Under the pieces are notes generated by a model. That model saw nothing but the letters and a program-made list of their open reading frames with translations, did no database searches and was not told the origin of the DNA. 64,000 bases of DNA from contig NZ_QKSD01000001.1 in assembly GCF_003234085.1 (NCBI RefSeq), positions 379,527-443,526 of the forward strand. Direction: 5' to 3'. Of the stretch, positions 28,659 to 56,386 are shown one piece after another. The position numbers and the translations under genes are program-made. Within the stretch, counting starts at the first letter, position 1. The number at the start of each line of letters is the position of its first letter. This DNA comes from Curtobacterium sp. MCPF17_052 (GTDB lineage: Bacteria > Actinomycetota > Actinomycetes > Actinomycetales > Microbacteriaceae).

Positions 28659-28684
28659 GCAGCCACGCACACCGTCACGAACCC
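28659..28684 (+). repeat. Left copy of 26-bp island-flanking direct repeat
   Basis: The 26 bases starting GCAGCCACGCACACCGTCAC are identical to 55632-55657 in the same orientation. Read on the minus strand they encode the same FVTVCVAA residues found near the end of the DeoR gene at 55.6 kb; here the frame continues with a different short tail (TGQPGSDH) to a stop at 28631. Confidence 0.85.
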
Positions 28685-29038
28685 GGCAAGGGCGGTGTCC
28701 CGCAGACGCCTGCGGCAGCGCAGGCCGGTGTCGTGATCCGCAGCCAGGGCGGCCACAGTGGTGCGATCCGTGTGTATCCGTCGTCGGGGGATCCGAGCTC
28801 CGGCCGGTTGTCGTACTCGCCGGAGGCGTCGAAGACGTCGGTGTCGGCGCAGGTCGCGCTCGGCTCGGACGGCAAGCTCACGATCGACAACACCCAGGGT
28901 GGTGCGACGCTCGATCTCGTCGTCAGCGTGCAGGGTTACTTCACCCCCAGCAACCCCGGTGGCGGGTTCACCCCGCAGACCGGCCGGCTCGCGGACACGC
29001 GCACCGGCTCGAGCACCGGACGCTGTGCCGGTCGGTGA
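28685..29038 (+). pseudogene. Truncated surface/secreted protein fragment
   Basis: The frame shows one module of a repeat protein known from secreted actinobacterial proteins: GAIRVYPS, then VSAQVALGSDGKLTIDNTQGGATLDLVVSVQGYFTP and GRLADTRTGSSTG. No start codon, signal peptide or earlier module is present; the similarity begins right after the 26-bp repeat, so the gene is cut at the island edge. It also stops soon after the module, before the IS3 element. Probably a non-functional remnant. Confidence 0.6.
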
Positions 29039-29165
29039 GGGGCCACGGTAGGCCTCATATTTCCCCTGCTGCCTGGCGCGTCTGCCATCATCCGTGGGGA
29101 CTGCTGCAGGTTTGGTTGACTCCTGACAGGTAGGGGCGTTGGCTCCTGCTGGAAGGATGTGCGCC

Positions 29166-29462
29166 ATGGTGAAGGCGTATCCGGAAGAGTTCCGCCGTGA
29201 CGTGATCGCGGTCGCCCGGAAGGGCGAGACGTCAGTGCGGCAGGTCGCGAAGGACTTCGGTGTGTCCGAGTCCTGCCTGGCCCGCTGGTTGCGCCTCGCG
29301 GACCGCGATGATGGCGTCGGTGTCGCGGCGGTGCCGTCGGTGAAAGCGGTGGAGCAGGCGGAGCTGCGGGACGCGCAGAAACGGATCCGGCTGCTCGAGC
29401 AGGAGAACGAGATCCTCCGCCGGGCAGCGGCGTACTTCGCCCAGTCACAACTCCCAAAATGA
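29166..29462 (+). CDS. IS3 family transposase OrfA
   Basis: A 98-residue DNA-binding subunit. Residues 3-50 form the helix-turn-helix (YPEEFRRDVIAVARKGETSVRQVAKDFGVS), followed by a leucine-zipper-like coiled coil (LRDAQKRIRLLEQENEILRRAAAYF). The last codons contain C CCA AAA, a canonical X XXY YYZ slippery heptamer at 29453-29459, directly before the TGA, so a -1 shift would fuse it to OrfB. Confidence 0.92.
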   Translation: MVKAYPEEFRRDVIAVARKGETSVRQVAKDFGVSESCLARWLRLADRDDGVGVAAVPSVKAVEQAELRDAQKRIRLLEQENEILRRAAAYFAQSQLPK

Positions 29463-30328
29463 TTTACCCGCTGGTCCTCGAACTCGCCGACGACGGTGTT
29501 CCTGTCGCGGTGGCCTGCCGGGTACTGGGCTTCTCGAAGCAGGCGTTCTATCGGTGGCGCGCCAGCCCCGTGTCAAAGCGGGACTGGGACGACGCGCACC
29601 CGACCAACGCCGCCATCGATGCGCACCGCGACGACCCAACGTTCGGGTATCGGTTCATCGCCGACGACCTCGTCGCGGCCAACCACCGGGTTTCGGAACG
29701 GCGGGTGTGGCGGCTGTGTTCACAGCAGCGGCTCTGGTCCCTGCACTCGAAGAAGCGCGACCTGAACCGGAAAGCAGGACCGCCGGTGCACGACGACCGG
29801 GTCCGGCGAGCGTTCACAGCTCCAGACCTCGACAAGCTCTGGCTGACCGATATCACCGAGCACCCGACTGGTGAGGGCAAGCTCTACCTCTGCGCGATCA
29901 AGGACGCCTGCTCGCGCCGAATCGTGGGCTACTCAATCGGCGATCGCATGCGGTCCTCGCTCGCCGTCGCGGCCCTGCAAATGGCAGTGCACCGCCGGAA
30001 CCCGACCGGGACGGTCGTCCACTCGGATCGCGGTAGTCAGTTCCGGTCGAAGAAGTTCGTCCGCTCGCTGGGTGATGCCGGCCTGCTCGGATCGATGGGC
30101 CGAGTCGGTGCGTGCGCGGACAATGCTGCGATGGAATCGTTCTTCGCGCTCCTGCAGAAGAACGTCCTGAACCGGAAGCGTTGGGCGACTCGGGAAGAGC
30201 TCCGGCTGGCGATCATTACCTGGATCGAAGCGACCTATCACCGGAAGCGGCGGCAACGTGGCCTGGGGAAGTTGACCCCGATCGAGTACGAGACGATCAT
30301 CAACCCACAGGTCGCTCTCGCGGCCTAG
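29459..30328 (+). CDS. IS3 family transposase OrfB (DDE catalytic subunit)
   Basis: A 289-residue integrase-fold protein. The DDE triad is complete: D in LTDITEH, D in HSDRGSQF and E in ADNAAMESFFALL, followed by the family C-terminus (YHRKRRQRGLGKLTPIEYE). An HTH_21-like region precedes the catalytic core (ERRVWRLCSQQRLWSLHSKKR). Its ATG overlaps the orfA stop (ATGA); after -1 slippage this ATG is also the next codon of the fused OrfAB. Confidence 0.93.
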   Translation: MIYPLVLELADDGVPVAVACRVLGFSKQAFYRWRASPVSKRDWDDAHPTNAAIDAHRDDPTFGYRFIADDLVAANHRVSERRVWRLCSQQRLWSLHSKKRDLNRKAGPPVHDDRVRRAFTAPDLDKLWLTDITEHPTGEGKLYLCAIKDACSRRIVGYSIGDRMRSSLAVAALQMAVHRRNPTGTVVHSDRGSQFRSKKFVRSLGDAGLLGSMGRVGACADNAAMESFFALLQKNVLNRKRWATREELRLAIITWIEATYHRKRRQRGLGKLTPIEYETIINPQVALAA

Positions 30329-30360
30329 ACGAACGAGTCAACGAAACCTGCAGCAGTCCC

Positions 30361-30695
30361 ACTTGCTGTTCTTCCACGTCGAGCAGCTCCGTTACGTGGT
30401 TATCGAGCTGAAGACCGGCAAGTTCAAGCCGGAGTACCTCGGCCAGCTCGGCTTCTACGTCGCCCTCGTCGACGATAAGCTCCGCCGCCCCCAGCACGCC
30501 GACACCGTCGGACTACTCCTCGTCGCCGACAAGAACAATGCCGTCGTCCGCTACTCACCCGGCGCACACCACACTCCAACCGGAGTAGCCAGCTACGACC
30601 TCCTCCCACCGGCAGTGCAAGCTGCCCTGCCCTCTGAGGCTGCCCTAGCTGAGGCGCTCGAAGCCACTCCTGAAGACGAGACATCTTTGCCCTAG
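30361..30695 (+). pseudogene. C-terminal fragment of DUF1016 (YhcG-type) nuclease
   Basis: The frame LLFFHVEQLRYVVIELKTGKFKPEYLGQLGFYVALVDD and GLLLVADKNNAVVRYS matches the C-terminal PDDEXK-like nuclease domain of DUF1016 proteins; IELKTGKF holds the catalytic ExK. The N-terminal helical half is missing: the frame begins at the right end of the IS3 element, so the gene is broken. Intact relatives occur in defence-related accessory regions. Confidence 0.7.
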
Positions 30696-31090
30696 CTACC
30701 CATCGCTGCCTGGCGAATGGACATGTCCGGACTGATGGCGATCGGCAGAAGCCTGGTGATTGTTCCGGTGCGCTGGGCGATGGTCATGTGCTCTTTCCTC
30801 CACTACGGACCTCATTCCTGGCGCTTCCTGTGAGGAGAGAACGGCCGGCGCGGAGGCCGGAGGGTCTAAGCGGGGTACCGGTCGGGGACGAAGAAATTCG
30901 GGCGATATGAGGGAGCTTGCAACCGCGTCCGAGATTGCTCGTCATCGGCTGGCGCCGTGGGCACCCACGTGGCGCGCAGGGTGGAGCGTTGGCAGGATCC
31001 GACGCAGGAACGCCCAAATGCGCCGAGGCGCGGGCGCGTAAGCGCTCCGATACACCCTGTGAGGTTGCTCGTGCTTTGCCTGCGCCCTCG
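30696..31090. other. Gene-poor stretch
   Basis: No frame here has codon bias, start context or recognisable content. It lies between the nuclease fragment and the divergent membrane protein/protease pair. Confidence 0.5.
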
Positions 31091-31405
31091 CTATGAGCGG
31101 TTCGACCGCACACGGCGTATCGCTCGTGTGATCAGCGGGGTCGACGCGGCCACGGTAGCGACCGCGCCTGCTGCGGTTACCGATGTCCAAAAGATGTGCT
31201 CTCGACCGCGTATGCCGGTGAAAAAGCCGGTGGGGCAGTGCGCCAGGGAGGGGTCGACACACTGCACCAGCAGCAGCGTCCCGGGCGCGTTGAGCATAAC
31301 GATCCCGGCCCACACGGTTAGGAGACCGACGACGAGGACCGCCAGGAGGAGCGCTGTTGGCAGGCGGGATCGACGGCGACGTGCCACCCCATCGTCACTT
31401 GACAT
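31091..31405 (-). CDS. Small membrane protein of unknown function
   Basis: A 104-residue protein with a basic N-terminus (RRRRSR), a strong membrane helix at about residues 17-38 and a second at about 72-90 (WTSVTAAGAVATVAAST). The region between contains two cysteines (VQCVDPSLAHCPTG) that would lie outside the cell. CATAAT followed by six bases precedes the ATG, so a leaderless start is plausible. Divergent from the broken protease gene with 9 bp between starts. Family not recognised. Confidence 0.5.
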   Translation of the reverse strand: MSSDDGVARRRRSRLPTALLLAVLVVGLLTVWAGIVMLNAPGTLLLVQCVDPSLAHCPTGFFTGIRGREHIFWTSVTAAGAVATVAASTPLITRAIRRVRSNRS

Positions 31406-31414
31406 ACGTCGATT

Positions 31415-32712
31415 ATGTACGAATACTCAGCAAATATAACGACGAAGTCTCAGTATCTACGACGACTGATCACGGGAACCGGCATCGCGGTGGCGTTGAT
31501 CGCCACCGCATGCGTGATGGGGGGTGACGTCGCGCCGGCGTCCGCGAGCGGGAAGGGCCCGAGCAAGGCCGGTGTCGACCTCAGTACCAATGCTGCCGGG
31601 GGCATGAGCGATGCGTTGCGTGCGCAGGTGCAGCAGGCGCGCCAGCTTGTCCCGCGTGGCGCCATCAACGTGGTGGAGTGGGACTCCGCGACCGCCGCGC
31701 TCACCGTTCACACTGCGCTCGAAGCGGTGAGCATCGAGTCGCAGCTCAACGCCGCGATCTCGCTCGCTCCGGTGAAGGTTGTCACGGACCGGTTCTCCGC
31801 GGATGAGCTCAACGCGGAGGCAGCTCGCCTGACATCCGAATCTGGATACAACATCACCAGCGTTAGTCCCCGGTCGGACTACTCCGGCTTGGAAGTGACG
31901 ATGCTCGCCGCGAACCCTGGCGCTCGGCAGGCGCCGCCGACAAGCTCGATCCCGTTGAGCATCACGGTCACCGATGAGAATCCGGCCGAGGCCACGAGCC
32001 GCAACCTCGACTCGTCGCCGTTCTGGGGCGGCGGTCTTATGACGCGTACCACCGGCGACCGTTACACGACCTGTTCAGTTGCCTTCCCCGTCGAGACGTC
32101 GTTCACTGGGGGCAGAGCTCGCGCGATGGTCACGGCTGATCACTGCGGAAGCACGGGTGAGGTGTGGAAGACAGGCGAGCCCGGCGCCGGTGGCGGCACG
32201 ATCGGGAAGCTCGAAAGTGGCAACTCCGGGGGGTCGGACTTCCGGCTGCTCAGCGCGCAGGGCCTGTCGGGTGTGGACTACCAAGGGGTGGTCTTCTGGG
32301 GCGGTATCGGTACGAGCGACGGCATCCCAGTCGAGGGCTGGTTCGACTCCGCTGTTGGAGACGTTCGAGTGGATCGCAGTCCGGTTCCGCGTGCAACGTC
32401 AAGATCACCAAGGTCAACGTCACGCAGTGCTTCAACGGGCTCACTCACTGCTACAACAACCTCGTCGAGACGCAGAGCACCGACGGTGGCGCGCTGTGGG
32501 GGAGCGGTGACAGCGGCGGTCCCGTGCTCGCAGGCAGTAGCGGCGGAAGTGTCGTCGGTGGCGTGATTAGTGGTGCCGACACGAACGCCTCGGTGCCCTG
32601 TCGTGGAGTTCCCGCAAGCGAGACCCGTACGTGCACGACGAAGGGCTGGTATGCCAATGCCCGTGCGTTCTTCGAGAACAACCCCGGCTGGTACCCGCTG
32701 AGCTACCAGTAG
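31415..32712 (+). pseudogene. Secreted S1-family serine protease, frameshifted
   Basis: The 5' frame encodes a signal peptide (hydrophobic core LITGTGIAVALIATA, likely cut after SAS), a pro-like region and the start of a trypsin-fold domain with the catalytic His in VTADHCG and a candidate Asp in GGSDFRLL. The remaining part, including CNVKITKVNVTQCFNGLTHCYNN and the nucleophile in GDSGGPVLAG, lies in the -1 frame. The switch must happen at about 32350-32390 and needs a single-base indel. As sequenced, the upstream frame would end at 32566 without the catalytic Ser. Either a recent pseudogene or a sequencing error. Confidence 0.7.
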
Positions 32713-32750
32713 GACGACCGCCGATGTTGGCTTGAGGACGTAGTAAGCAC

Positions 32751-32799
32751 GACCACCGGTGGGTGGTCAGCGCCTTGCGCTGACCACCCACCGGTGGTC
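32751..32799. terminator. Long perfect hairpin
   Basis: Perfect 23-bp arms (32751-32773 and 32777-32799, starting GACCACCGGTGGGTGG) with a 3-nt loop CTT, 38 bp behind the protease stop. Likely a terminator, though it is longer than usual. Confidence 0.6.
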
Positions 32800-33837
32800 T
32801 GTGATTGGCACTGTTGATAGCAGACCCATACGACCACGCAAACACGGCGAACTGATGTCGCGGTACGGGACGGATGTGTCAGCGGGCGCGCCGAACGAAC
32901 GAGGTGCGGAGCACCGGGCAATCGGTGCTCCGCATCCGCCAGCCCGAAGGGGGTAGCACCAGCACCGACCTCGAGAAGTTTGAGGTGCCTTTGGGGGCAG
33001 GGAGGAACGTGCGCTGGCCTCAAAGGGCAACGGAACCGGCCCCCTCAGCTGTGTGCTGCGGCTCGCGACGACCGACGGATATACCTCAATAATGTATGGT
33101 ATGTCACATGTGCGGAAGGGAGCTCCTGCCACTCTTTTGCCTTGACCAGTGTCATGAGATCGGTGCAAGCCGCGGAGCTGCTCGGGTACGTGGCGTTTGA
33201 CGCGCCTCCACTGGGCATCTTTGTGGGACAGGCACGCCGGAATCCCCCGGTCAAGGAGGCAGGCTCGTCCGCCTGACCTGAACAATCAGGATCGCGATCT
33301 GCGCAGTGTTCGGGATGGGGGGAGTGGACCTTGTCCCCGGCTGATGTCGTCCGCCAGATAATTTGTCCGACTGCCACCCAACGTGTCTGAGATACGAAGA
33401 TGGACACGTATTTGGCAGTGCGGACGGGTTACGTCGACGGCGGTCCCGCTCAGTTCGTTCGCTGCGAGGCGTCCTATCGGTTCCCAAGAGATCTGTCGAT
33501 TGCCCGTGCTGCTTGTCGAGGTCGCCTTGGGCGGCCGAGCAGACTATCGCTGCGAACCGGCAGCGGCACTCGCTCCCGGGGGGCGTTTGACGGACCGTCA
33601 CTCCGAACGCCAGGGGACCTAACCGAAATTGCGTCTGTCGATCTCGAAGAGCGTCAAGGCGCCCGGCCGCCGCCCTCACGCGTACGGGACCGGCTAACGG
33701 GACGGCGGGGTGGGCCAGTGCTCGGAGGAGGGCGCGGGTACAGCCACGACCTGCGCGTCGTCTTGATAGATGATTAAACCCGGAGCTCGAGTCGACAGCC
33801 GGGCTACTGACACTCGCTGCGCGGACTCTGCTTGCAA
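32800..33837. other. Gene-poor stretch with dif-like repeat
   Basis: About 1 kb without a credible gene: frames on both strands are short, overlap each other and lack ribosome sites. It contains the left copy of an imperfect 60-bp repeat (33088-33147). Local base composition is lower in GC than neighbouring coding DNA. Confidence 0.5.
33088..33147 (+). repeat. Left copy of imperfect direct repeat framing rhamnoside cluster
   Basis: AATAATGTATGGTATGTCAC and the following 40 bases align with 49772-49828 in the same orientation at roughly three quarters identity, ending in CCTTGACC in both. The first 25 bases resemble a Xer/dif core (ATAA, six-base centre, TATGTCA). Confidence 0.55.
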
Positions 33838-33874
33838 CAGGTAGGCGCAGTGAGTGTCGCACTGCGCCTACCTG
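33838..33874. terminator. Hairpin terminator behind GH3 gene
   Basis: Perfect 15-bp arms (CAGGTAGGCGCAGTG and its complement) with a 7-nt loop, 16 bp beyond the stop of the minus-strand GH3 gene. Confidence 0.65.
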
Positions 33875-33889
33875 TCCCGAAGGTTCCGA

Positions 33890-36145
33890 TCAGCGGACGG
33901 ACACCGTCGTGCTCAGCGGCGTCGCGTCAACGGCGTCGCCGACGGAGATGCCATAGGTCCCGAGGGCGACCGACCAGTCGTGCGTCGTCGTATCCCAGAT
34001 CGAGAGCGGTTCGTCGGGCGATCCAGCGTCCACCGTCGCTTTCACGGTCCGGCGCTCACCCGGCCGCAGCGTGACGTCCGAGAAAGCGACCAGCCGCTTG
34101 CCCGGCTCCGCCGCCGCGGTCGGCAGCGTCAGGTAGACCTGCGGTGTAGCCGTGCCGGCCGTCGACCCGGTGTTGCGGACCGAGAACCGGACCGTCAGGC
34201 GGGTGTCCGCGCCGGACCCTCGCCGGTCGACGCGGAGGTCGGACCACGAGAACGACGTGTAGGACAGGCCGTGGCCGAAGGCGAAGAGCGGTTCGATGCC
34301 CTTGCTCTCGTACCACTTGTGACCGACCGCGAGCCCCTCAGAGTACGCGACCTGCCGGATCACGGTGCTGCCGGCGGGCCGGGTGACCTCGCCGTTGACA
34401 AGGCCGGGGTACTGCGACGGGGTCGACGTCGGGATGTCCGCGAGCGACTTCGGGAACGTCATAGGGAGCTTGCCGCTGAAGTCGACGTCCCCGTAGAGCA
34501 GGCGAGCGAGCGCGTTGCCCTGCTGCTCGCCCGGGTACCAGGCCTCGACGACCGAACGGACGTCCGCCAGCCACGGCATGGTGGTCGCACTCCCGGTCTC
34601 GAGCACTACCACGGTGTCCGGGTTGGCCGCGGCGACCGCGCTGATGAGGGCATCTCCGTCGCCGTCGAGCGCGAGCGTCGTGCGGTCGGCACCCTCACCC
34701 TGCAGCGCGTACCCGAACACGACCACTGTGTCGGCAGCAGCGGCCACCGCGGCGGCCTTCGCCTTGTCCGTGCCCGGGTCGAACGTCACCGTCGCACCGA
34801 CCGCCGCTGCTCGCTCGCGGATTGCGTCGAGCGGCGCGACGACGTTCGGGCAGCTGACGGGCGGTCCGAAGTTCGGCATCGCACAGACGCTCGCGGCGCT
34901 GATGCCGTTGGTCGCGGTGGCGGACGCGGTGGCGCCGATCACAGCGATGGTTCTGTTCGACTTGGTCAGCGGCAGCGCGTTCGCGCTGTTCTTGAGCAGC
35001 ACGCTGCCCTGTTCCGCCACCTGCCGGGCGACGGCCTTGTTGGCCGGGGTGCTCGACGAGGTCGACGGCGTCGTCGGCAACGGGTGGTCGAACAGCCCGC
35101 TTGCGATGTACGACCGGACGACCCGGTGCGCAGCCGCGGTGACCTGTGCCTCCGTCACTTGGCCGGTGTCAATCGCCGCGCCGATGTTCGCCGGCGTGTA
35201 GAACCGCGGACGGTTGAGTTCTTGGTCGAGTCCGGCATTGAGCGACGGCGCGGTCGAGTGCACAGCGCCGAAGTCGGACACGACGTACCCGCGGAATCCG
35301 TCGTCCTTCTTGAGGACGTTCTTGAGGAGGGGGTTCTCGCAGCCGTAGACGCCGTTGATCTGGTTGTAGGAGCACATGACGCCGGCCGGGTCGCCCTTCG
35401 CGATGGCGATGCGGAACGGCAGGTCATACACCTCCCTGAGCGTGCGGCCGTCGACGTTCGACGAGCTGGTCTGCCGGTCGAGTTCCTGCTCGTTGGCGAT
35501 GTAGTGCTTGACCACGGCCATGACGGGTTCCGTCGGATTCCCGGTCTGGATGCCGTCGACCGCGGCCCCGGCCATCGTCCCGGCGAGGTACGAGTCCTCG
35601 CCGAGGTAGTCGGGAGTGCGGCCGGAAAGCGGTGTGCGTCCAGAGTGGAGCCCCGGGGCGAGCAGGCCGTTCTTCCCGGACCGGAAGGCCTCGTCAGCCT
35701 GGGCAGCGCCCTTGTCGTACGCGAGTCCGGAGTCGAAAGTCGACGCGAGTGAGATCTGCGACGGGAACACCGTGACGCCGGCGGGCCCCCTGACGTAGTC
35801 CGGTCCGTCGGCGTACGACACGAGCGGCGTGCACGGTACCTGCGCGGGATAGGTGACGCCACTGAACACGGTCTGAGCGGGGTTGTTCGCGGCCTGTTCG
35901 TCGAGCCAGCGGAGCTGCTGGCCGAGCGAACTGGCCCTGAGGAGGCGGTCGGCCCGCTTGTCCGCGGATTCCCGGGGGTTCATCCACGGGCACTTCTGAA
36001 GGTCTGCGGTGGACGCGCCGGCCGACTTCCCTGCGGTGGACGGGGCAGCTGCGGCAGGAAGGACGTGGAGCCCTCCGAACACGAGCCCCAGGGTGACGAG
36101 TGTCGCGCCGACCGCGGCACTCCTCCCTCGTGGGTGCGATGACAT
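33890..36145 (-). CDS. Secreted GH3 beta-glucosidase
   Basis: A 751-residue exported glycoside hydrolase of family 3. Residues 1 to about 38 are a signal peptide (core AAVGATLVTLGLVFGGLHVLPAAAA). The catalytic barrel includes KHYIANEQELDR, the RTLREVYDLPF segment and the nucleophile Asp in GYVVSDFGAVHS; the second domain contains GSVLLKNSANALPL and VVLETGSATTMPW; a C-terminal FnIII-like domain carries the YTSFSWSDLRV and LVAFSDVTLRPGE segments. It likely removes glucose from plant glycosides in concert with the GH78 enzyme. ATG 36145 is preceded by GGAGAGG. A LacI-type operator lies 74 bp upstream, so it probably belongs to the rhamnose regulon. Confidence 0.9.
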   Translation of the reverse strand: MSSHPRGRSAAVGATLVTLGLVFGGLHVLPAAAAPSTAGKSAGASTADLQKCPWMNPRESADKRADRLLRASSLGQQLRWLDEQAANNPAQTVFSGVTYPAQVPCTPLVSYADGPDYVRGPAGVTVFPSQISLASTFDSGLAYDKGAAQADEAFRSGKNGLLAPGLHSGRTPLSGRTPDYLGEDSYLAGTMAGAAVDGIQTGNPTEPVMAVVKHYIANEQELDRQTSSSNVDGRTLREVYDLPFRIAIAKGDPAGVMCSYNQINGVYGCENPLLKNVLKKDDGFRGYVVSDFGAVHSTAPSLNAGLDQELNRPRFYTPANIGAAIDTGQVTEAQVTAAAHRVVRSYIASGLFDHPLPTTPSTSSSTPANKAVARQVAEQGSVLLKNSANALPLTKSNRTIAVIGATASATATNGISAASVCAMPNFGPPVSCPNVVAPLDAIRERAAAVGATVTFDPGTDKAKAAAVAAAADTVVVFGYALQGEGADRTTLALDGDGDALISAVAAANPDTVVVLETGSATTMPWLADVRSVVEAWYPGEQQGNALARLLYGDVDFSGKLPMTFPKSLADIPTSTPSQYPGLVNGEVTRPAGSTVIRQVAYSEGLAVGHKWYESKGIEPLFAFGHGLSYTSFSWSDLRVDRRGSGADTRLTVRFSVRNTGSTAGTATPQVYLTLPTAAAEPGKRLVAFSDVTLRPGERRTVKATVDAGSPDEPLSIWDTTTHDWSVALGTYGISVGDAVDATPLSTTVSVR

Positions 36146-36218
36146 GTCGATTCCTCTCCGTTGAGTGAACGCATCGGCGGCGAGCTCCCCGTCGTGCCAA
36201 ATGGCGGCCGGGGCTCCC

Positions 36219-36232
36219 TTGAAACGCTTCAA
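36219..36232. promoter_or_regulatory. LacI-type operator, copy 1
   Basis: TTGAAACGCTTCAA, a near-perfect palindrome with central CG, lies upstream of the minus-strand GH3 gene and is identical to copy 2. Confidence 0.7.
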
Positions 36233-36366
36233 GTCCGCGCGGTGAAGGTACCGCCGGCCGTATCGCCGCGCAAGGGTCAACGGGAGCTGCGACGCAATCA
36301 GGCCCAGACCGCGGCGGTCGCGGTGGCCGCCGCGCCGTCCGACCATGGTCTGCCGACCGCGCGCGC

Positions 36367-38717: not shown

Positions 38718-38719
38718 TC

Positions 38720-46772: not shown

Positions 46773-46776
46773 CGCG

Positions 46777-49586: not shown

Positions 49587-50052
49587 AGCGCCAGTCGGCG
49601 GAGCTCAGATCGCGACGCCTCGAGCCAATCCCACGCGCCGGCAACGGGCGCGGCTCGACCCCTCCGGCCATAACCTTTGAGGACTCCTTTCGGAGCAGTA
49701 CGAGATTCAAGTTGTCCCCAAAGGAGCGGACCGACGGCTCACGAGGCGCATCACGGTCGAGCTCATGTGCCGATAATCTGTTATGTCAGATTGCGTGAAG
49801 GCGAGCTCTGCACTCTCTTACCTTGACCCCGTACGTGGAGACGTCCGGCACGGCTATGAGCGTGAGGATGAACGATCCCACAAGCTCTCGCATGCGAGGT
49901 CGGTCAGCCGTTCTCGGTCAGCGTGATCCACCCATCCCGCGGTTCGGGTCCGCGTACTTACCGGTCGTCCTCAGCCCCGACGAACCTCGAAGCCCAGGCA
50001 GCGTTCGTCATGCTCCACGACGAAGGCTTGTGAGGTTTCTTGCTCCGACGAG
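49587..50052. other. Gene-poor stretch with right dif-like repeat
   Basis: No credible gene. It marks the change from the well-biased rhamnose genes to lower-GC accessory DNA and holds the right copy of the imperfect repeat (49772-49828). Confidence 0.5.
49772..49828 (+). repeat. Right copy of imperfect direct repeat framing rhamnoside cluster
   Basis: GATAATCTGTTATGTCAGAT and the following bases align with 33088-33147. Its first part (CCGATAAT, then TTATGTCA) resembles actinobacterial dif half-sites but the centre is two bases shorter than usual. Confidence 0.55.
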
Positions 50053-50544
50053 CTACCGCGAGAGCAAGCTGTACACGTAGACGAGAGACGTGGTTTTCGT
50101 CTCGCCACGCAACACCACTAGCTGGTCCCGTTGCCGCAGCGTCTTCACGTCGGTCGCGCCGAGACGCCGGAGAACGCGTTCTCCCTCATCTGTGCTGAGC
50201 TTCTGCCCGGGCTGGGGTGCCGGGTAAGACGCCCCGTTGCCGAGGCTGGCGCCGTCGCCGACGTTGTGCAGTTCGAGGACCCCGCTGACGATCTCGGGGC
50301 TGCCCAGCAACCCATGAGACGTAGATGCGGAGGACTCCAGGACTTTCGCTGAGGCGCCGTCCCACCGCAGCCCAGCAACTAACTCGAGCGTCTCTACTGG
50401 TACGTCGTGGCATTGGTCGGTGACCGAGTTGCAGATGCCGAACATCGTTTCCCGTGCAACGACGTGCTTCACGCCGTAGAAGCCGAGAAGCACCATTGTT
50501 GTCGCAAGCGCCGTGACTCCGATCGTCCACATCCGCTTGCGCAT
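50053..50544 (-). CDS. Membrane-anchored CX6C protein, paralogue 1
   Basis: A 163-residue protein with a short basic N-terminus (MRKRM), one membrane helix at residues 6-25 and an extracytoplasmic domain. After the helix comes ICNSVTDQCHDVPVETLELVAGL, the same CX6C-x3-P-x2-T-[IL]-E pattern found in the two genes that follow on the other strand. GGAGG five bases before the ATG at 50544 sets the start. Family not recognised; function unknown. Confidence 0.6.
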   Translation of the reverse strand: MRKRMWTIGVTALATTMVLLGFYGVKHVVARETMFGICNSVTDQCHDVPVETLELVAGLRWDGASAKVLESSASTSHGLLGSPEIVSGVLELHNVGDGASLGNGASYPAPQPGQKLSTDEGERVLRRLGATDVKTLRQRDQLVVLRGETKTTSLVYVYSLLSR

Positions 50545-50726
50545 GTACGCCTCCCTGCTGCTCCCGTCACCCTGCCACACGGGCCGGTACGACCGCGGCG
50601 TCAAGACAGTCTGCGGCTGCTCAACCCACGACGGCCGCCGCGTACGGCGGTTGGTCACCCTCCGCAGGTGGGCGTTCCTTCCGAAGCCGAACATGTTCCG
50701 ACTTCCGTAGGACGCGGAGACAAGCG

Positions 50727-50759
50727 AGCATCGCGCATGGTGGGACCATGCGCGATGCT
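50727..50759. repeat. 15-bp palindrome covering a start codon
   Basis: AGCATCGCGCATGGT, GGG, and the exact complement of the left arm. The ATG of the next gene (50748-50750) lies in the right arm. Confidence 0.8.
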
Positions 50760-51245
50760 TCGTTCCCGAGGTCCCCCCTCCGGCGGGGTGTCGTGGCCGC
50801 GCTCGTGGCACTGCTGCTGGTTGCGGTGGCTTTCGGCGGGTATCGAGTGCTCAACCCGCGCGGGGAACTTGGGACCTGTTTCGTGTTGTCAGATACGTGC
50901 CGGAGCGTGCCGATGAGCACCATCGAGCGGTACAGCGGCCTGCAGTTCCCACCCGGGACGCGGACAGAGCAGTCGATGGCGAGGATCCCGGGCGTCGTCG
51001 GCTTCCGGCCGGCGTTCGTGAGCGCCGTCCTGCAACTCCCGCCGCAAGGCGCCGTGCAGGTGGTCGGGTACGGTCTCGGCTTGGACTGGGACGGGCAGGC
51101 CGACGCCTCGCCGTACGAGCAGCAACTCAGAGCTGCAGGCGTCACACGCATCCGTATCGATACGAACGGCGATGGCATGATCGTGCTCACCGGGCGCCGA
51201 GACGGACAAAGGATGCTACTCGTCTACGTCAACTACCATGACTGA
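50748..51245 (+). CDS. Membrane-anchored CX6C protein, paralogue 2
   Basis: A 165-residue protein: basic N-terminus, one membrane helix (residues 14-31) and a soluble domain with TCFVLSDTCRSVPMSTIERYSGLQFPPGTR, which aligns with the other two paralogues, then FVSAVLQLPPQG and a C-terminal strand pair ending VYVNYHD. No ribosome site precedes the ATG; instead the start lies inside a perfect palindrome. Its last eight bases overlap the next gene, suggesting coupled translation. Confidence 0.55.
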   Translation: MRDASFPRSPLRRGVVAALVALLLVAVAFGGYRVLNPRGELGTCFVLSDTCRSVPMSTIERYSGLQFPPGTRTEQSMARIPGVVGFRPAFVSAVLQLPPQGAVQVVGYGLGLDWDGQADASPYEQQLRAAGVTRIRIDTNGDGMIVLTGRRDGQRMLLVYVNYHD

Positions 51246-51783
51246 CGGCGATTGGTTCCCGCTCGCTTCGAGATTCAGCCCTGAAACGATGCGCGAAGAA
51301 CAAGCAGCCGCGACAAGCATTCGTCTGTTGGTGCAGCTCGCGGGCGTGCTCGCCGTTGTGGCAGCGCTCATCGTCGGATTCGTGTTCGCGGTGCTCTCCT
51401 GGGTGACGGCTGCACCGGACCGCGGCATCTGCCGAGTCAGCGAAGACGCCTGCGACGTCTCGCCCCTTGCGACGATCGAGCAGTACACGGATGTGCGGTT
51501 CCCCGCGGGAACGCGAGTAGTCCGTTCGGACGCTGACCCCGGAGGTCAAGGCGGCTTCGGGGTGCAAAGCGTTTCCGCGGTTCTTCGGCTCCCCCAAGGA
51601 AGCCGAGTCCCCACGCTCGACAACGCCACGCCCGCAGCTCCCGAGGACAAGGCGCGTGCAGCACTCCGCGAAGAAGGAGCAACCAGTATCACCGGCTTGG
51701 AGTCCGACGGGACGAACCTCTTCGCCGGAACGGCAGACGACAGAATCCTCATCTACGTCTGGACTGCTTATGGGCAACTCTGA
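51238..51783 (+). CDS. Membrane-anchored CX6C protein, paralogue 3
   Basis: A 181-residue protein with a longer cytoplasmic N-terminus (about 30 residues), one membrane helix (residues 31-58) and the family motif ICRVSEDACDVSPLATIEQYTDVRFPAGTR, followed by VSAVLRLPQGSR as in paralogue 2 (VSAVLQLPPQG). The C-terminus ends with ILIYVWTAYGQL, like VYVNYHD and VYVYSLLSR of the others. The start overlaps the end of paralogue 2. Confidence 0.6.
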   Translation: MTDGDWFPLASRFSPETMREEQAAATSIRLLVQLAGVLAVVAALIVGFVFAVLSWVTAAPDRGICRVSEDACDVSPLATIEQYTDVRFPAGTRVVRSDADPGGQGGFGVQSVSAVLRLPQGSRVPTLDNATPAAPEDKARAALREEGATSITGLESDGTNLFAGTADDRILIYVWTAYGQL

Positions 51784-51875
51784 CGGCTTCGCTCCACGTC
51801 CGATAGCCGATCGGCTTACGACACACCGCTCCCGTCTGACCGCTCCTGGCCGGAACCCACACCCGGTCGGAGACC

Positions 51876-51881
51876 TAGCAT
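51876..51881 (+). promoter_or_regulatory. -10 box of leaderless promoter
   Basis: TAGCAT is followed by six bases and the ATG at 51888. Confidence 0.5.
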
Positions 51882-51887
51882 CAGGGG

Positions 51888-52292
51888 ATGGACGACGCGG
51901 TGGGGACACGGCTCAGCGGCCGGCAACGCAAGGCCAGAGTGGTCGCGTTCTGGCCGCTCACTGTGCTGGGTGCGCCGATCATGTGCGCGGCCTGGATCTG
52001 GCTCACTCTGGCTTCCACGGAGCAGGTGACGGAGTCAGCCAAAGCGCCGCCCGGCGACACCTCGACCGACGGTCTCTTCGTGACGTTCGGCGTCGTACCG
52101 CTTGTGCTCGCACACCTGCTCGGACTCGTCATTCTGCGATCGATTGCGCCGCGCGAACGAGACGAGCGAGGCGCGAGCTGGGCAATTGCAGCCGTTGCGG
52201 TTCTCGTCACGTCTGGTATCGGCCTTGCCTTGGCACTGCAGTTCAACGGTGGGGTCCTCCTCACCCCCAATGACGGCGGCTACACGCCATAG
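51888..52292 (+). CDS. Small four-helix membrane protein, unknown
   Basis: A 134-residue protein with about four hydrophobic segments (residues 19-41, 66-86, 96-116 and a short last one) and a polar loop QVTESAKAPPGDTSTDG. No family recognised. A leaderless start is indicated by TAGCAT six bases before the ATG and the lack of a ribosome site. Confidence 0.5.
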   Translation: MDDAVGTRLSGRQRKARVVAFWPLTVLGAPIMCAAWIWLTLASTEQVTESAKAPPGDTSTDGLFVTFGVVPLVLAHLLGLVILRSIAPRERDERGASWAIAAVAVLVTSGIGLALALQFNGGVLLTPNDGGYTP

Positions 52293-52393
52293 AGGCCCCT
52301 GATACTTACTTTTCCGTCAAGGCGTCAGAGTTAAGCCGGAGTCAGCGTCCCGTAGACGATCGGTGATCGGACGACTGCGCTCATCCCGGCGCC

Positions 52394-52399
52394 TAGGCT
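52394..52399 (+). promoter_or_regulatory. -10 box of leaderless promoter
   Basis: TAGGCT is followed by six bases and the GTG at 52406. Confidence 0.5.
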
Positions 52400-52405
52400 C
52401 TGCCC

Positions 52406-52816
52406 GTGGAGCAAACGGAGACACCGGTCCTGCACAACCGCGTGACGTTGGCATGGATCCTGCCGACCCTCGCGCTTGTCCTCCTGGCCGCACAGATGCT
52501 CGCATGCGTCCTTGCCCACGTCCACACCTCCCCGATTGATGCTGCGTACGACGTCAGCGCTGAGCGTGGCCGGGGCCTCCTCCACGCTCGTCCCGCCGAC
52601 GTCACAGCAGCCGGATGGAGTCTCGGCCTCACGTGGATCGCCACGGTCCCCGTGGCGCTGGCAGCGACACTGCTAGCAGCATCAGCCATCGACCGGTTCG
52701 GCGCGGAGGGGAACCTTCGCGCGTACGCGCAGTCGGTGACGCTGGTCGGGCTCGTTGGGTGCATCGCCGGCGTCGTTCTCGCCGTACTTGGCGTCCTCGA
52801 GCTCCTGCGGGTCTGA
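52406..52816 (+). CDS. Small membrane protein, unknown
   Basis: A 136-residue protein with three hydrophobic helices (about residues 16-36, 68-90 and 106-132). The loop between the first two carries HVHTSPIDAAYDVSAERGRG. Not recognised. The GTG start follows a TAGGCT box by six bases. Confidence 0.5.
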   Translation: MEQTETPVLHNRVTLAWILPTLALVLLAAQMLACVLAHVHTSPIDAAYDVSAERGRGLLHARPADVTAAGWSLGLTWIATVPVALAATLLAASAIDRFGAEGNLRAYAQSVTLVGLVGCIAGVVLAVLGVLELLRV

Positions 52817-52962
52817 TGGCTGGCAGCTCCGGCACGAGCCGCCGTCGTTCGTTCCGAGACGCAGCGTTGCCCCGTTTGACGATCGGCTATTGAGACAGCA
52901 GAACCTGGCTGAGGCCAAGGATGTCGGAACAGTCCTCTTGACCGACTTGGTCGGTTGTATCG

Positions 52963-53265
52963 GTGTCTTCGTTCCTGCGATCCTTCGCTGTGACCACTCA
53001 GCACTTCGAGCTCGACAGCGCCGCCTTCCTCTGGGCACTGGCGCTCCGCGCAGAGACCGAGCCGGTGGTCGCAGCAGACCTGCTGTCGACGATCGAGACT
53101 CTGATCCCGCTCTTGGCGCGAACAGACCGTGCGGTGACGGATGACCTCAGGGCACAGTCGGACCGGCTCGACCTCTCGGTCCACGGCGGCTACGGGGACC
53201 CGAAGCGAGTGACGCAATCGGTCGGCCGGGAAGTACGCAGGATCCTGGCTCGCCTCGAAGCATGA
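52963..53265 (+). CDS. Small hypothetical soluble protein
   Basis: A 100-residue, mainly helical protein; the convincing part starts at about VTTQHFELDSAAFLWALALRAETEP, so the GTG at 52990 (91 residues) is an alternative start. It has no signal peptide. It ends in an ATGA overlap with the next gene, the best evidence that both are real. Function not known. Confidence 0.45.
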   Translation: MSSFLRSFAVTTQHFELDSAAFLWALALRAETEPVVAADLLSTIETLIPLLARTDRAVTDDLRAQSDRLDLSVHGGYGDPKRVTQSVGREVRRILARLEA

Positions 53266-53684
53266 CGACTTCGCTAGAACTGCACGTCTGCCCGGGCCAC
53301 CGAGCTGTCTCGACAGCCGATCGGCTACCGGGACGCCGTGCTTGGCTGGCGCACGTGGCAGATAAACCTCGTGGCACTGTGCTTGTCGATGCGGCACTGG
53401 AGCACGTGCCCGCCCTCATCCGGTCCGCAGTGGCAGGGATACCACGGTCCTCGATTACCGACATTGATGGCAGCACTGCGGTCATCACTCAACGCTCGGG
53501 CGTCCTGATCCCCCGTGCCGAGGTCATCACCCTCGGGTTTCGCCGCGCGGAAGACGGTCGGGCGGAGGTTGTGATTTTGGCCGCTCGGCGCGGAGGGCTC
53601 GCTGCTCCCGACGCAGTGCCGTCTCAATTTGAGAGGGCTCTCTTGGCGTCGATCCGCACAGCCTCGAAGAAGGCGACGCACTAG
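53262..53684 (+). CDS. Hypothetical protein coupled to upstream gene
   Basis: A 140-residue protein with an alternating strand/helix pattern (AVITQRSGVLIPRAEVITLGFRR, AEVVILAARRGG); no transmembrane segment. ATGA overlap with the preceding gene. Not recognised. A short repeat motif (AGCCGATCGGCT) lies within its 5' coding region at 53315. Confidence 0.45.
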   Translation: MTTSLELHVCPGHRAVSTADRLPGRRAWLAHVADKPRGTVLVDAALEHVPALIRSAVAGIPRSSITDIDGSTAVITQRSGVLIPRAEVITLGFRRAEDGRAEVVILAARRGGLAAPDAVPSQFERALLASIRTASKKATH

Positions 53685-53777
53685 GCGTACGGTGACCGAT
53701 TGGCTAACGAGAAGGGCCAAAGGCATTCCGGTACCCTCGAGCCGAGCGCTCACTTACGCGCTCGACGAGAGGACACC

Positions 53778-53888
53778 GTGGTTGCTGCGTTTACTGGGGT
53801 GGGATTTGAACCAATCCCGACGGCGATCGTCGCCGTACTGGCTGCTGCGATCGTCGTCAGCGCCATCATCAGGAGTCGCCGCCGCTGA
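53778..53888 (+). CDS. Very small membrane protein, possibly anchor remnant
   Basis: From GTG 53778 a 36-residue product reads as a short lead, AFTG, a 15-residue hydrophobic stretch (TAIVAVLAAAIVVSAII) and RSRRR. This resembles the C-terminal sorting signal of a cell-wall protein with the rest missing, or it is a genuine single-helix small protein. No ribosome site. A longer frame from TTG 53700 exists. Confidence 0.25.
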   Translation: MVAAFTGVGFEPIPTAIVAVLAAAIVVSAIIRSRRR

Positions 53889-54221
53889 GTGGTGCCTCAC
53901 TGGCCGATCCCCTATCGGAACCCTGCCTCCCCTCCCCCCGCTCGCGTTTCGCAGTAACCGACGGTGACAGGGTCTGGAGCCGATACTCATCCTTATGTCA
54001 GGCCTAGAGGTGCTACCTCGATGCCACAAGGGCCCGCGCCCCGCATCGAGGTCGCTTTTCGCCGGTTGCGGTCGATCCTCGGCATAGCGCCTGAAGCAAT
54101 CACACGACAGCGGTCGGTCGCCCGGCGGTGACCGACCGTTGTACCTATCGGGGCGTCGTGTCGATCTGCTTCGCCATTGTTGCAGGCCGCAGACCGGTAC
54201 GGGGCTTTGTCAACGCCGACC
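53889..54221. other. Intergenic stretch with hairpin
   Basis: No gene seen. It contains a terminator-like hairpin at 54015-54052. Confidence 0.5.
54015..54052. terminator. Hairpin followed by T-run
   Basis: Perfect 10-bp arms ACCTCGATGC and GCATCGAGGT with an 18-nt loop, followed by CGCTTTTC on the plus strand. Confidence 0.5.
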
Positions 54222-54377
54222 TCACGCGCCCTTGTCGCCACTCATTCGAGTGGCTATTCCGTGGATGATGAACAGCGCTCCGGGAATGATGAACATCGCG
54301 GCGATGAACAACTTCGCATCATCGCCCATCCAAATCATTTCGAGGACGCCGATCAGGACGAATATCACGCCCATCAC
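54222..54377 (-). CDS. Small two-helix membrane protein
   Basis: A 51-residue product, too short for most gene callers. Two hydrophobic helices (MGVIFVLIGVLEMIW and LFIAAMFIIPGALFIIHGIA) are joined by MGDDAK, and the C-terminus is polar (TRMSGDKGA). The frame remains open upstream for about 20 codons with protein-like content (HRRDTNLKARRPVGAI) but without a start codon, so an unusual start or a frameshift is possible; GTG 54377 is the first standard start. Not recognised. Confidence 0.4.
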   Translation of the reverse strand: MMGVIFVLIGVLEMIWMGDDAKLFIAAMFIIPGALFIIHGIATRMSGDKGA

Positions 54378-54545
54378 GATCGCACCGACCGGCCGTCTAG
54401 CTTTGAGGTTCGTGTCTCTCCGATGGTCACTCAGATCCGCAAGCCCCGGGGCTACTCAAACTTTTCATGAGAGATCACCGACGACGGCGTCACCCGCCCG
54501 CCCTGCGACGAGATCGCAGACAACGCCGTCACGGTCGGCGCGCGG

Positions 54546-55643
54546 TCAGTCGTCGATCGTCGATCCTCCGTGGACGGTCGCGAATGCGTCGACCGCACGC
54601 CGGCAGTCGCGGATCTCGGCTCTTGTGACCTGCAGCGGCAGGTTCCGGAGAGCGTGGATGCGCCCGTTCCGTGCCCAGGCTTCGAGTGCCAGTCCGCGGG
54701 AGAACAGCCAGCCGAGGCTGCCGCCCTGGAAGTCGCCGTCCATCTCCGTGAGGTCGATTCCGATCTCGAGTCCGTAGGGCTGGAGGAGCGTCAGGACGTC
54801 CTGCGCCGGGAGGCCGGGGCCGGCCATCAGGTTGAAGTCACTCGCGCCCGGGGCGAGGAGGGTGAAGTCGTTGTCTCGCTCGAGCTCTGGTCGGCGCGGA
54901 GCTCTCCTGTCCTCGAGGTTCGGGACGACGGGTTCGATGCGCGCTCTGCCGACACGAGGCTGGAGGACGGACTCGGAGCCGGCGGCCCACTGTCGGGTTG
55001 CCAAGTCGGGGAGTAGAGACGTCAGGAGATGCTGGAGGCCGGTGGGTGCGAATGCGGTGGCTAGACCCTCGAGCGCTTGCCGGAGCATGCTCGGGAGGTT
55101 GCCTTCCAGTGGGATCCAGTGATCGCCGATCTGGATCCCGGTTTCCTGGTGGTGAACGTCGACGACTCGGCCGCCTGGGGAGGATGGGTACAGGGCCCAG
55201 CGGGTGGAGTCGTCTTCGCAGCGGAGCACCTCGAAGACGTAGTGCACGAGGTCCTCGGCCACGGCCGCGATCGGTCTTGCGGGCAATGGAAGACCGAATG
55301 CCGTGGCGCGGCTCGGCGGCCGGATCTTATCGTCGTACTGCGCGGAGCCAAGACGTCCAGTGAAGTCGACAGCCCAGCTCCAGACCGTCTGCAGGCTCGA
55401 CCAGCTCGCGTCTGCCCGCGCCACGGGGCCGGAGTCCCGGCTCATCCAATCGGCCAACTCCGTCAACCGCGCCTCGTGGGATGCGATCGTGAACCGCAGC
55501 CACTCAGCGGCGTCCTGGGGTTCCAGGTCTGCGAAGTCGATGGATCTCGTGTCGGCGATCGTCCCATTCTCCCGATGGCCTTCCTGCCCGAGTTCCGTCA
55601 GGAGGTACCCGTCGGCGCCCGGGTCTCGGTTGCAGCCACGCAC
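54546..55643 (-). CDS. Hypothetical protein beginning inside the right island repeat
   Basis: A soluble protein of about 365 residues, acidic, without signal peptide; recognisable stretches are IDFADLEPQDAAEWLRFTIASHEARLTELADWMSRD and TVWSWAVDFTGRLG. I know no family. The only standard start in frame before the conserved-looking part is GTG 55643, which lies in the 26-bp repeat and inside the DeoR gene (different frame, 46-bp overlap). The gene may therefore have lost its original 5' end when the island inserted. Codon use is less biased than in the chromosomal genes. Confidence 0.5.
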   Translation of the reverse strand: MRGCNRDPGADGYLLTELGQEGHRENGTIADTRSIDFADLEPQDAAEWLRFTIASHEARLTELADWMSRDSGPVARADASWSSLQTVWSWAVDFTGRLGSAQYDDKIRPPSRATAFGLPLPARPIAAVAEDLVHYVFEVLRCEDDSTRWALYPSSPGGRVVDVHHQETGIQIGDHWIPLEGNLPSMLRQALEGLATAFAPTGLQHLLTSLLPDLATRQWAAGSESVLQPRVGRARIEPVVPNLEDRRAPRRPELERDNDFTLLAPGASDFNLMAGPGLPAQDVLTLLQPYGLEIGIDLTEMDGDFQGGSLGWLFSRGLALEAWARNGRIHALRNLPLQVTRAEIRDCRRAVDAFATVHGGSTIDD

Positions 55644-56386
55644 ACCGTCACGAACCCCGATGCCCGGAACGGTGCCAACTGCTCCTCCGTCGCCCCGTCG
55701 TCGGTGACGAGCGACCACGGCCGTTCGACCCGCGTCCACCAGTGCGACGACGCGACACCGAGCTTCGTCGAGTCCGCCAGCACGTACAACTCCCGCGCCC
55801 GCTCGACCATCACGCGTTTGAGTGATGCCTGCTCCGGCGTCTCCTCGCAGAGCCCGAACTCCGCCGAGACCCCGTCGGCACTGAGGAACGCCACGTCGGC
55901 GGAGACGTCCGCCATGATCCGCTCGGCGAAGGGGCCGACGAACCCCGAGCTGATGTGCCGCAGCCGTCCGCCGACGACGATGAGCTCGACGCCCGTGCTG
56001 TGCTCGAGCGCGTTGGTGGTCGTCAGCCCGGTGGTCACGACGGTGATGCCCTCGCGGTACACGAGGTTCCGCGCGAGGGCTCCGACGGTTGTCCCGGCGT
56101 CCAGCACCGCGACTGCTCCGGCTGGGACGAACGTGCTCGCGAGCCGTCCGATGGCGGCCTTCTGCTCGATCGCGATCGCCTCGCGCTCCCGCAGGCTCCG
56201 CTCCGGGCCGCCGATGGTCTGGGCGCCGCCGTAGGTCCGGACGATGGCGCCGTCCCGCGTCATCGTGTCGAGGTCCCGCCGGATCGTCGACGCGGAGACC
56301 GAGAACACCGCTGCGAGCTCGTCGACGGTGACGGGCTTCTCCTGCAGCAGGCGGCTGATCTCGCGCCGACGGTCGCGGGCGTTCAC
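55598..56386 (-). CDS. DeoR family transcriptional regulator
   Basis: A 262-residue repressor. Residues 1-57 are the DeoR helix-turn-helix (RRREISRLLQEKPVTVDELAAVFSVSASTIRRDLDTM), followed by TYGGAQTIG and the sugar-phosphate-binding domain (LDAGTTVGALARNL, VVTTGLTTTNALE, VFLSADGVS-like AFLSADGVSAEFGL). The C-terminal codons contain the right 26-bp repeat, and the last residues (ETRAPTGTS) come from island DNA. GTG 56386 follows the pdxA stop after one base, so it is the last gene of the four-carbon acid operon and likely its regulator. Confidence 0.88.
   Translation of the reverse strand: MNARDRRREISRLLQEKPVTVDELAAVFSVSASTIRRDLDTMTRDGAIVRTYGGAQTIGGPERSLREREAIAIEQKAAIGRLASTFVPAGAVAVLDAGTTVGALARNLVYREGITVVTTGLTTTNALEHSTGVELIVVGGRLRHISSGFVGPFAERIMADVSADVAFLSADGVSAEFGLCEETPEQASLKRVMVERARELYVLADSTKLGVASSHWWTRVERPWSLVTDDGATEEQLAPFRASGFVTVCVAATETRAPTGTS
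55632..55657 (+). repeat. Right copy of 26-bp island-flanking direct repeat
   Basis: Identical to 28659-28684, same orientation. It lies in the 3' part of the DeoR gene, the usual position for an attachment site that restores a gene end. Confidence 0.85.

Follow-up and report, generated by a model that had tools for sequence, protein, structure and literature searches.

A mosaic rhamnose island at the end of a DeoR gene in Curtobacterium and the genus-wide 28-bp site that bounds its one-gene cassettes

How did a block of accessory DNA flanked by two exact copies of a 26-bp sequence, one of them in the last codons of a DeoR-family regulator gene, come to its place in the genome of Curtobacterium sp. 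MCPF17_052, and what is it made of? The stretch analysed here, which we call the window, comprises 64,000 nucleotides (C1:379527-443526, on contig NZ_QKSD01000001.1 of assembly GCF_003234085.1), and the element in question is the island that occupies its positions 28685-55631. The source assembly (labelled G000) has 3,539,297 bases in 31 contigs and a completeness of 76.6%, and the organism belongs to the genus Curtobacterium as judged by its named close relatives. For comparison we used 66 Curtobacterium genomes, that is, this one and 65 others (labelled G001 and so on). The island is a mosaic: its left part consists of the debris of an RHS gene, an IS3 element and a nuclease gene, its middle is a rhamnoside and rhamnose cluster, and gene cassettes form an array near its right end. 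The explanation that we favour as a whole, with a probability of roughly 0.6, is that this mosaic, with cassettes bounded by a specific site, was inserted at the end of the DeoR gene.

The repeat itself was found as an earlier note on this DNA, made from the sequence alone, had described it. The copies at 28659-28684 and 55632-55657 (both given on the + strand) are identical, and the similarity extends outwards to 30 of 31 matching bases (28654-28684 against 55627-55657). Random sequence of the window's size and composition would be expected to contain about 2e-5 such pairs of identical 26-mers. Searched through the whole 3.54-Mb assembly, as the earlier note had proposed, the 26-mer occurs in just two copies, with no further ones at up to 3 mismatches and hence no crowd of unrelated copies. 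At the same tolerance it is absent from 64 of the 65 other genomes of the genus, G037 having one match with 3 mismatches, and 24 of its bases gave 0 matches in viral contigs. The repeat flanks the whole element, as is expected of integrative elements. Its right copy does lie in the last codons of the DeoR gene (55598-56386, minus strand), which ends in the C-terminal tail TETRAPTGTS and is 92% identical to its counterpart in G036 (strain MCJR17_055, locus L034) and 91% to that in G040. Read in the orientation of DeoR across the joined flanks (28631-28684, minus strand), the left copy translates to FVTVCVAATGQPGSDH followed by a stop, also in agreement with what had been claimed, and would be the displaced old 3' end of the DeoR gene. 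Just outside the 26-mer the left copy and the MCJR17_055 DeoR gene have CCGGTC in common, the right copy reading TCGGTT, which modestly supports taking the left copy as the old DeoR end.

Comparison with relatives supports a putative insertion with a displaced DeoR end. DeoR orthologues, with 65-92% identity, are present in 7 of the 65 other genomes and their tails differ. To the left of the island, the gene for an NAD-dependent epimerase-like protein (about 27420-28280, minus strand, PF01370) serves as a marker of the backbone, with 87-91% DNA identity in G036, G040, Microbacteriaceae PS02332, G021 and G044, and it is followed by a gene of 71 residues (28414-28629, + strand) that is conserved in relatives. 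In G036 only 94 bp separate the left-flank gene from the end of DeoR; the island is absent there and so is the 71-residue gene. The same distance is 1.2 kb in PS02332 (L038), where one response-regulator gene and one gene for a small membrane protein could be recognized by eye, and 13.8 kb in G040, where by eye most of it is one gene of the non-ribosomal peptide synthetase (NRPS) type. This NRPS-like open frame has 3502 residues (L040, 4764-15272) and sits beside DeoR in the same variable interval. The stretch 28327-28634 is 87-91% identical in G021, G012 and G044, and the left-flank gene is followed downstream by the 71-residue gene at a distance of 1.2 kb in G021 and 7.8 kb in G044. In both of these genomes, which have only weak relatives of the window's DeoR, the backbone resumes at window position 59.7 kb. 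From the layouts of G036, PS02332, G040, G021 and G044 we conclude that the interval varies from species to species and that the 71-residue gene is part of the backbone. The invariant gene order among relatives that would have spoken against an insertion was not seen, and no more than separate pieces of the island were matched in any of the 65 other genomes. The left flank was not found next to DeoR in G039, G033, G052 and G059. The contig ends about 210-470 bp past the end of DeoR in G059, G033 and G052 (L006, L007, L009), and in G033 and G052 this last stretch looks by eye like the start of a secreted-protein gene; because of this resemblance just before a contig end, the neighbour of DeoR in these two genomes may be a repeated gene.

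Near its right end, at 51.8-53.9 kb, the island holds a row of at least five one-gene cassettes, five of which were delimited, with a 28-bp near-palindrome (GTCTCGGTAGCCGATCGGCTACCGAGAC) between them. These cassettes are bounded by a site that is found throughout the genus, and they recur elsewhere with their ends in that site. The earlier note had recorded only unknown small membrane proteins in the accessory DNA outside its named genes, a description that is incomplete, since part of them are cassettes of a genus-wide system. All five lie on the + strand. Cassette A (51810-52358) has an open reading frame (ORF) at 51888-52292 for a membrane-like protein of 134 amino acids (aa) and a site at 51810 (score 28.6 with the matrix described below). 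The left site of cassette B (52358-52882; ORF 52406-52816, 136 aa) is below the matrix threshold and was set by the ends of homology. Cassette C (52882-53320; ORF 52990-53265, 91 aa) has sites at 52882 (38.0) and 53320 (39.4), and is followed by cassette D (53320-53699; ORF 53355-53684, 109 aa) and cassette E (53699-53907; ORF 53778-53888, a membrane-like protein of 36 aa), the latter with sites at 53699 (19.9) and 53907 (19.1). A Pfam search with the proteins of cassettes A to E gave nothing above the cut-off. Cassette B (52349-52888) was found at five other places, namely twice on contig C7 of the same genome (98% and 96%), in G055 together with the preceding unit and twice in G037 (93%), and its homology terminates in the site. 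Cassettes A and B stand together on G055:C19 at 95%, cassette D has a 74% relative on the own C7 with both ends at sites in both places, and copies of cassette E (53687-53910) are present on the own C7 (88%) and in G036, G054 and G001. No copy of cassette C was found in the search of 49600-55631 against the genus. This right part of the island gave short, sharp-ended matches in 16 of the 65 other genomes, none of which covered more than a fifth of the query, and the match ends fall within the palindromic motif. One-gene cassettes that recur in different contexts are also a feature of integrons.

The coincidence of homology ends and sites was measured in 53 loci (1.18 Mb) that contain 227 sites and 305 homologies of 100-4000 bp. 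Pairs from the same genome were dropped, except those with the window, and 300 shifts of the site positions were used as control. End points were found within 20 bp of a site in 84 of 567 cases (mean of the shifts 9.6, maximum 22) and at sites in both sequences in 38 (mean 0.04, maximum 1). Both ends were at sites in at least one partner for 26 of the 305 homologies (mean 0.11, maximum 4), although these 26 are not independent and represent about 11 distinct units by our own count. As an example, the GrpB cassette of the plasmid D40 (see below), with sites on both sides, recurs at 83% in G024, where one of its ends coincides with a site. Furthermore, a 0.8-kb unit annotated as alpha/beta hydrolase in a C. 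flaccumfaciens plasmid (L229) is found at 91% in G013 and G032, and G007 has this unit too.

Almost the whole genus has the site. A search with the core and one of the arms (CGATCGGCTATYGAGAC, with at most 1 mismatch) detected it in 65 of the 66 genomes, and the backward control was never detected. A 28-column matrix built from 41 distinct sites gave 136 strand-wise hits above 14 in 26 loci, a count in which a palindrome can score twice and training sites are included, and 0 in reversed sequence. At a threshold of 4 the window has 6 hits, all of them in the island, against 1 in the control; five are those at 51810, 52882, 53320, 53699 and 53907, and the sixth, a weak one, is at 33689. Background sequence contained 5 sites in 520 kb.

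A much longer array was found in the plasmid NZ_CP126274.1 of Curtobacterium sp. MCBD17_040 (D40), which was outside the training data of the matrix. Two annotated stretches of D40 contain 28 site hits above 10 (two overlap) against 1 and 0 control hits, and 27 of the 28 fall between annotated genes at a coding fraction of 0.72-0.76. In the dense array (L224, NZ_CP126274.1:158841-198869, positions 2582-26395) there is about one site per gene over 24 kb; the next 50 kb (L227) are without any site above 10. At 10 of the 28 hits, by our own count from the distances, the stop codon of the neighbour gene is inside the site. The genes of the array code for GNAT acetyltransferases, NUDIX proteins, phosphotransferases, GrpB, major facilitator superfamily proteins and barstar, and are found in both orientations. 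The symmetrised consensus of 27 D40 sites (threshold 12) is GTCTCGGTAGCCGATCGGCTACCGAGAC, with near-ties at positions 4 and 25. Their two arms match at 8.5 of 14 positions on average, compared with 3.8 for random 28-mers, and the centre is the best conserved part of the site. Outside the genus, a plasmid of Clavibacter sp. A6099 (L225) has a strong copy at position 8014 (score 40.4), because of which the system probably reaches other Microbacteriaceae.

The ends of the island bear on how it arrived. On the left, the broken surface gene of the earlier note is indeed there and could be named by eye as an RHS/YD-repeat fragment (28683-29018, + strand), cut at the repeat and with interior homology to long RHS-like frames of G001 and G039. 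Homology to the intact RHS gene of G001 begins at 28683; that of G039 is similar from 28683 by eye, while its BLAST match begins at 28710. At this junction the RHS sequence and the DeoR tail have 2 bp (CC) in common, and joining the island ends as a circular junction does not restore the RHS frame. Next comes an IS3-family element (29097-30360, + strand; Pfam rve and HTH_Tnp_1) with terminal repeats at 29097-29122 and 30335-30360, no 3-bp target duplication (the flanks are GTG and ACT) and 89% copies on Curtobacterium plasmids. At its end begins the nuclease fragment (30363-30680, + strand), also rightly recognized before, which is the C-terminal part of a YhcG-type PDDEXK nuclease (PF06250 positions 63-142 of 157) and has matches of up to 86% in many genomes of the genus. 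The IS3 element is placed between two broken genes. A composite IS3 transposon was considered and rejected, since the repeat search of 28000-56500 gave no second copy and there is no target duplication. In the left part of the island, which has a low guanine plus cytosine (GC) content, there is also a 23-bp perfect inverted repeat with a 3-bp loop (32751-32799). At the right end, the outermost gene (54546-55604, minus strand) has no Pfam match or assigned function. Distant relatives were detected in 6 of the 298 other family genomes searched, and as their alignments start at residue 14-25 and run inward no conserved part of the gene appears to be missing; an obvious start codon was not found near the right repeat. 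Of the earlier claim that the repeat interrupts the outermost gene on either side, the part on the RHS gene on the left is confirmed and that on the right-hand gene is not supported.

We propose that 28685-55631 is foreign accessory DNA and that its entry into an interval of the chromosome with variable content would have been by recombination in the final codons of DeoR, an event that would have left the old end of the gene on the left and supplied DeoR with a new tail on the right. The likeliest route would be that a circular or excised form joined the chromosome by one crossover within a shared core of some 30 bp, which is favoured because the 26 identical bases and the 30-of-31 extension fit it. 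The integrase responsible would have been lost since, perhaps in a deletion around the IS3 element, a possibility raised by the position of this element, without target duplication, between two broken genes. Several results weigh against this explanation, some of them concerning the island and others the cassettes. The exact empty site, with the 71-residue gene directly beside DeoR, was not found in the 66 genomes of the genus and 7 named loci; the proof that the earlier note had suggested, this gene next to a DeoR gene ending in TGQPGSDH, was thus not obtained, and the insertion is supported instead by the variable interval, the near-empty G036 and the differing cargo. The left end of the island falls inside the RHS gene, in the middle of the frame, and the 26-mer is absent at the corresponding point of both RHS genes compared (G001, G039). 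The cargo of G040 lies in the same interval without a repeat of the DeoR end. A repeat of the own DeoR end was sought nearby in G040, G036, G039 and G002, where direct scores were 11-14, reversed controls 10-11 and the window's own score 28, and with 0 of 4 relatives above background the DeoR end was rejected as a recurrent attachment site. No integrase was detected in six frames of contig C1 (PF00589 at E <=0.1, PF00239 at E <=1e-5), as the earlier note had seen without searches. The idea of an integrative element keeps the exact repeat in its favour and has against it the contig without integrase, the left end in mid-gene and a DeoR end that is not reused. Contig C29 (67342-69335) of this genome does have two recombinase matches less than 2 kb apart, one to serine recombinases in a frame of 667 residues and one to tyrosine recombinases in a frame of 602 residues. 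A tRNA gene as insertion target was rejected, as the window has none. A comparable case is the genomic island PAISt of Streptomyces at the 3' end of the protein gene bacA (PMC4057263). Islands of this type share with ours the direct repeats at both ends, the accessory cargo and the insertion at a gene end; the window differs in the contig without integrase, the left end in a broken gene and a target that is not reused in four relatives.

As to the cassettes, the training sites of the matrix had been picked by one arm. In an earlier run of the end-point test, which included same-genome tandem repeats, 59 of 423 end points were close to a site, compared with 7.5 on average and at most 66 in the shifts, and because of this maximum the end-point measure of that run taken alone failed its control; its count at sites in both sequences was 20 (shift mean 0.025, maximum 1). 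A clean presence or absence of a cassette at one position was not found in paired loci, none of the 14 candidate gaps being at a site. Our best guess for the enzyme is a small serine recombinase of the resolvase/invertase type acting in trans, on the grounds that the site has a symmetric form, that its AT centre is a palindrome and that genes are found in both orientations. Whatever its family, a site-specific recombinase would exchange DNA at the central GATC, and each cassette would then leave and re-enter with half of each site. The crossover sites of small serine recombinases of this type have a comparable length, 28 bp, and resemble the cassette site in being symmetric with a palindromic 2-bp centre; the known res and hix sites act within one element and not as separators in cassette arrays. 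Among 30 serine-recombinase loci, taken from 34 PF00239 matches in 14 genomes that had been chosen for having sites, 8 hold a site, with 11 sites in 99 kb compared with the 5 in 520 kb of background. Of 24 recombinase entries, which represent 18 distinct genes by our own count, 2 (G033 and YC1, of one subfamily) have a site at 120 bp upstream of the gene, and weaker hits are 40 and 134 bp from recombinase genes. G004, G006 and G034 have sites and no PF00239 match, and where serine recombinases do lie close to sites they may belong to the cargo of plasmids rich in sites.

The island could have arrived without any integrase, as a linear fragment with a related DeoR end that underwent homologous recombination on the right and an illegitimate join of RHS sequence to the old tail on the left. 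This is rather unlikely in our judgement, even if several features suit it: the left junction in the middle of the RHS gene with 2 bp (CC) in common, the one mismatch in 30 of 31 bases, as expected of two related gene ends, the contig without integrase, and the differing 3' neighbours of DeoR among relatives. DeoR identity to G036 also steps from 84-93% to 98-99% at 56232, although a smaller similar step is seen in two other relatives. Sliding identity was on the whole ambiguous about a recombination tract in DeoR and does not decide between the routes. On the other hand, 26 identical bases next to unrelated tails would be improbable, since the first 150 bp of the DeoR 3' ends in the three relatives compared show no more than 82-85% identity, and a donor with the tail TETRAPTGTS was not seen among the relatives read. 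We slightly favour a crossover with a lost integrase over such homology-assisted illegitimate recombination of a linear fragment. The repeat might instead be a 26-bp target duplication, from a staggered break that was filled in when foreign DNA was captured by end joining, and both the mid-gene left end and the missing integrase would suit the capture of broken DNA; but a stagger of 26 nt is unusual and the four further matching bases (CGGT) past one mismatch would be unexpected (chance about 0.007 with the base composition of the window), which makes this origin quite improbable. An assembly error might be suspected in a draft of 31 contigs with 76.6% completeness, and is very improbable given that the repeat is unique and that the left junction is interpretable, from a plausible DeoR tail to RHS.

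Known systems and other roles have also to be weighed for the 28-bp sites. Integrons, like the arrays described here, consist of cassettes in a row, most of them with one gene, in which a site is repeated from gene to gene, and the cargo of D40 (GNAT, NUDIX, phosphotransferase, GrpB and barstar genes) is of the same kind. The core motif of the integron attC site is GTTRRRY / RYYYAAC; the site found here differs in being a symmetric 28 bp without the GTTRRRY core, and the genes differ in having both orientations. PF00589 was not detected on the own C1 or C7, and an integron integrase is not annotated in 140 kb of D40, where the gene table may be incomplete. On the tested features (no integrase with the arrays, no such core and weak top-strand folds) an integron was rejected. 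That the sites are transcription terminators or intergenic palindromes like the repetitive extragenic palindromic (REP) sequences, and not recombination sites, is improbable. Their palindromic sequence, their place between genes and their frequent position right at a stop codon would suit such a role, but homologies end in them far more often than in shifted controls and they cluster in accessory arrays, with few in the background and 0 in the 50 kb beside the D40 array. Moreover, when five of the island sites were folded as single strands (top strand), the gain over shuffled sequence was slight or nil (z from +0.5 to -1.4), and the sites have no Rfam match in the window or L224. Movement of the cassettes by XerC/XerD is an equally doubtful possibility. 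A length of 28 bp fits the 11+6+11 arrangement, and the near universality of the sites in the genus parallels the wide distribution of Xer, which to our knowledge is present in nearly all bacteria. Similar units are the dif (pdif) modules of Acinetobacter plasmids, in which 28-bp sites bound small modules that move as units (PMC13141974). The cassettes differ from them in several respects. The dif-like candidate in 400 kb of G040 (CGCGCCGATAATGCATATTATGTCAACT, a single candidate whose dif identity is unconfirmed) is unlike the cassette site. The centre of the cassette site is its best conserved part, whereas that of proteobacterial dif varies more between species (PMC2731167). In addition, site orientations are not strictly alternating, though orientation is ill defined for a near-palindrome.

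The main cargo of the island, under the insertion that we favour, is the rhamnoside and rhamnose cluster. It starts with a glycoside hydrolase of family 3 (33890-36346, minus strand; PF00933, PF01915). All that follows is on the + strand: a sugar ATP-binding cassette transporter with binding protein and two permeases (36440-39619; PF01547 and PF00528 twice), an alpha-L-rhamnosidase (39403-42288; PF17389, PF08531, PF05592), a LacI-family regulator (42143-43348; PF00356, PF13377) and a block for rhamnose catabolism (43388-49586) with isomerase, bifunctional aldolase/dehydrogenase, rhamnulokinase and FMN-dependent dehydrogenase. The last three types were recognized by Pfam as aldolase/dehydrogenase, sugar kinase and FMN-dependent dehydrogenase, and a match to a Frondihabitans plasmid supplies the names rhamnose isomerase, rhamnulokinase and bifunctional aldolase. 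The cluster has some match (E <=1e-20) in 45 of the 65 other genomes, and where the match is long the catabolic block is mostly 82-85% similar. G036, G040 and G039, which have a DeoR orthologue, gave no match to it, and neither did G021, G012 and G044. In G033, G052, G059 and G002, which have the orthologue too, the cluster match is on contigs other than that of DeoR. Much of 29-40 kb and of 49-56 kb has a GC content of 0.63-0.68, with flanks mostly near 0.72, and at 40-49 kb the core of the rhamnose cluster resembles the host with 0.70-0.73. An origin of the block from a plasmid or phage was rejected, as no record covers more than 19% of any query (28400-52400, 49600-55631 and 28600-36400 for plasmids, 28600-52600 for phages). 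Between the rhamnose genes and the cassettes, at 50053-51783, three short proteins of secreted or membrane type resemble one another by eye, with common Cys and Pro motifs, and lack a Pfam match.

We consider the chances about even that Curtobacterium, and probably other Microbacteriaceae, possess a cassette-shuffling system that is distinct from integrons and from Xer/dif, that may insert cassettes in either orientation in plasmids and chromosomes, with the symmetric 28-bp site between single-gene cassettes, and of which the right part of the island would hold one array. Like integrons, such arrays would contain genes for acetyltransferases, phosphotransferases and immunity proteins of the barstar type. 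Cassette arrays of the integron kind have been described chiefly in Gram-negative bacteria. No description of such a system in Curtobacterium was found in the literature among the matches listed, which is weak evidence of absence. If true, the existence in Actinobacteria of a cassette system that uses a site of its own would account for the gain and exchange of small adaptive genes by the plasmids of Curtobacterium. The island, for its part, shows how a rhamnose-utilising trait would have come into an interval whose content depends on the species.

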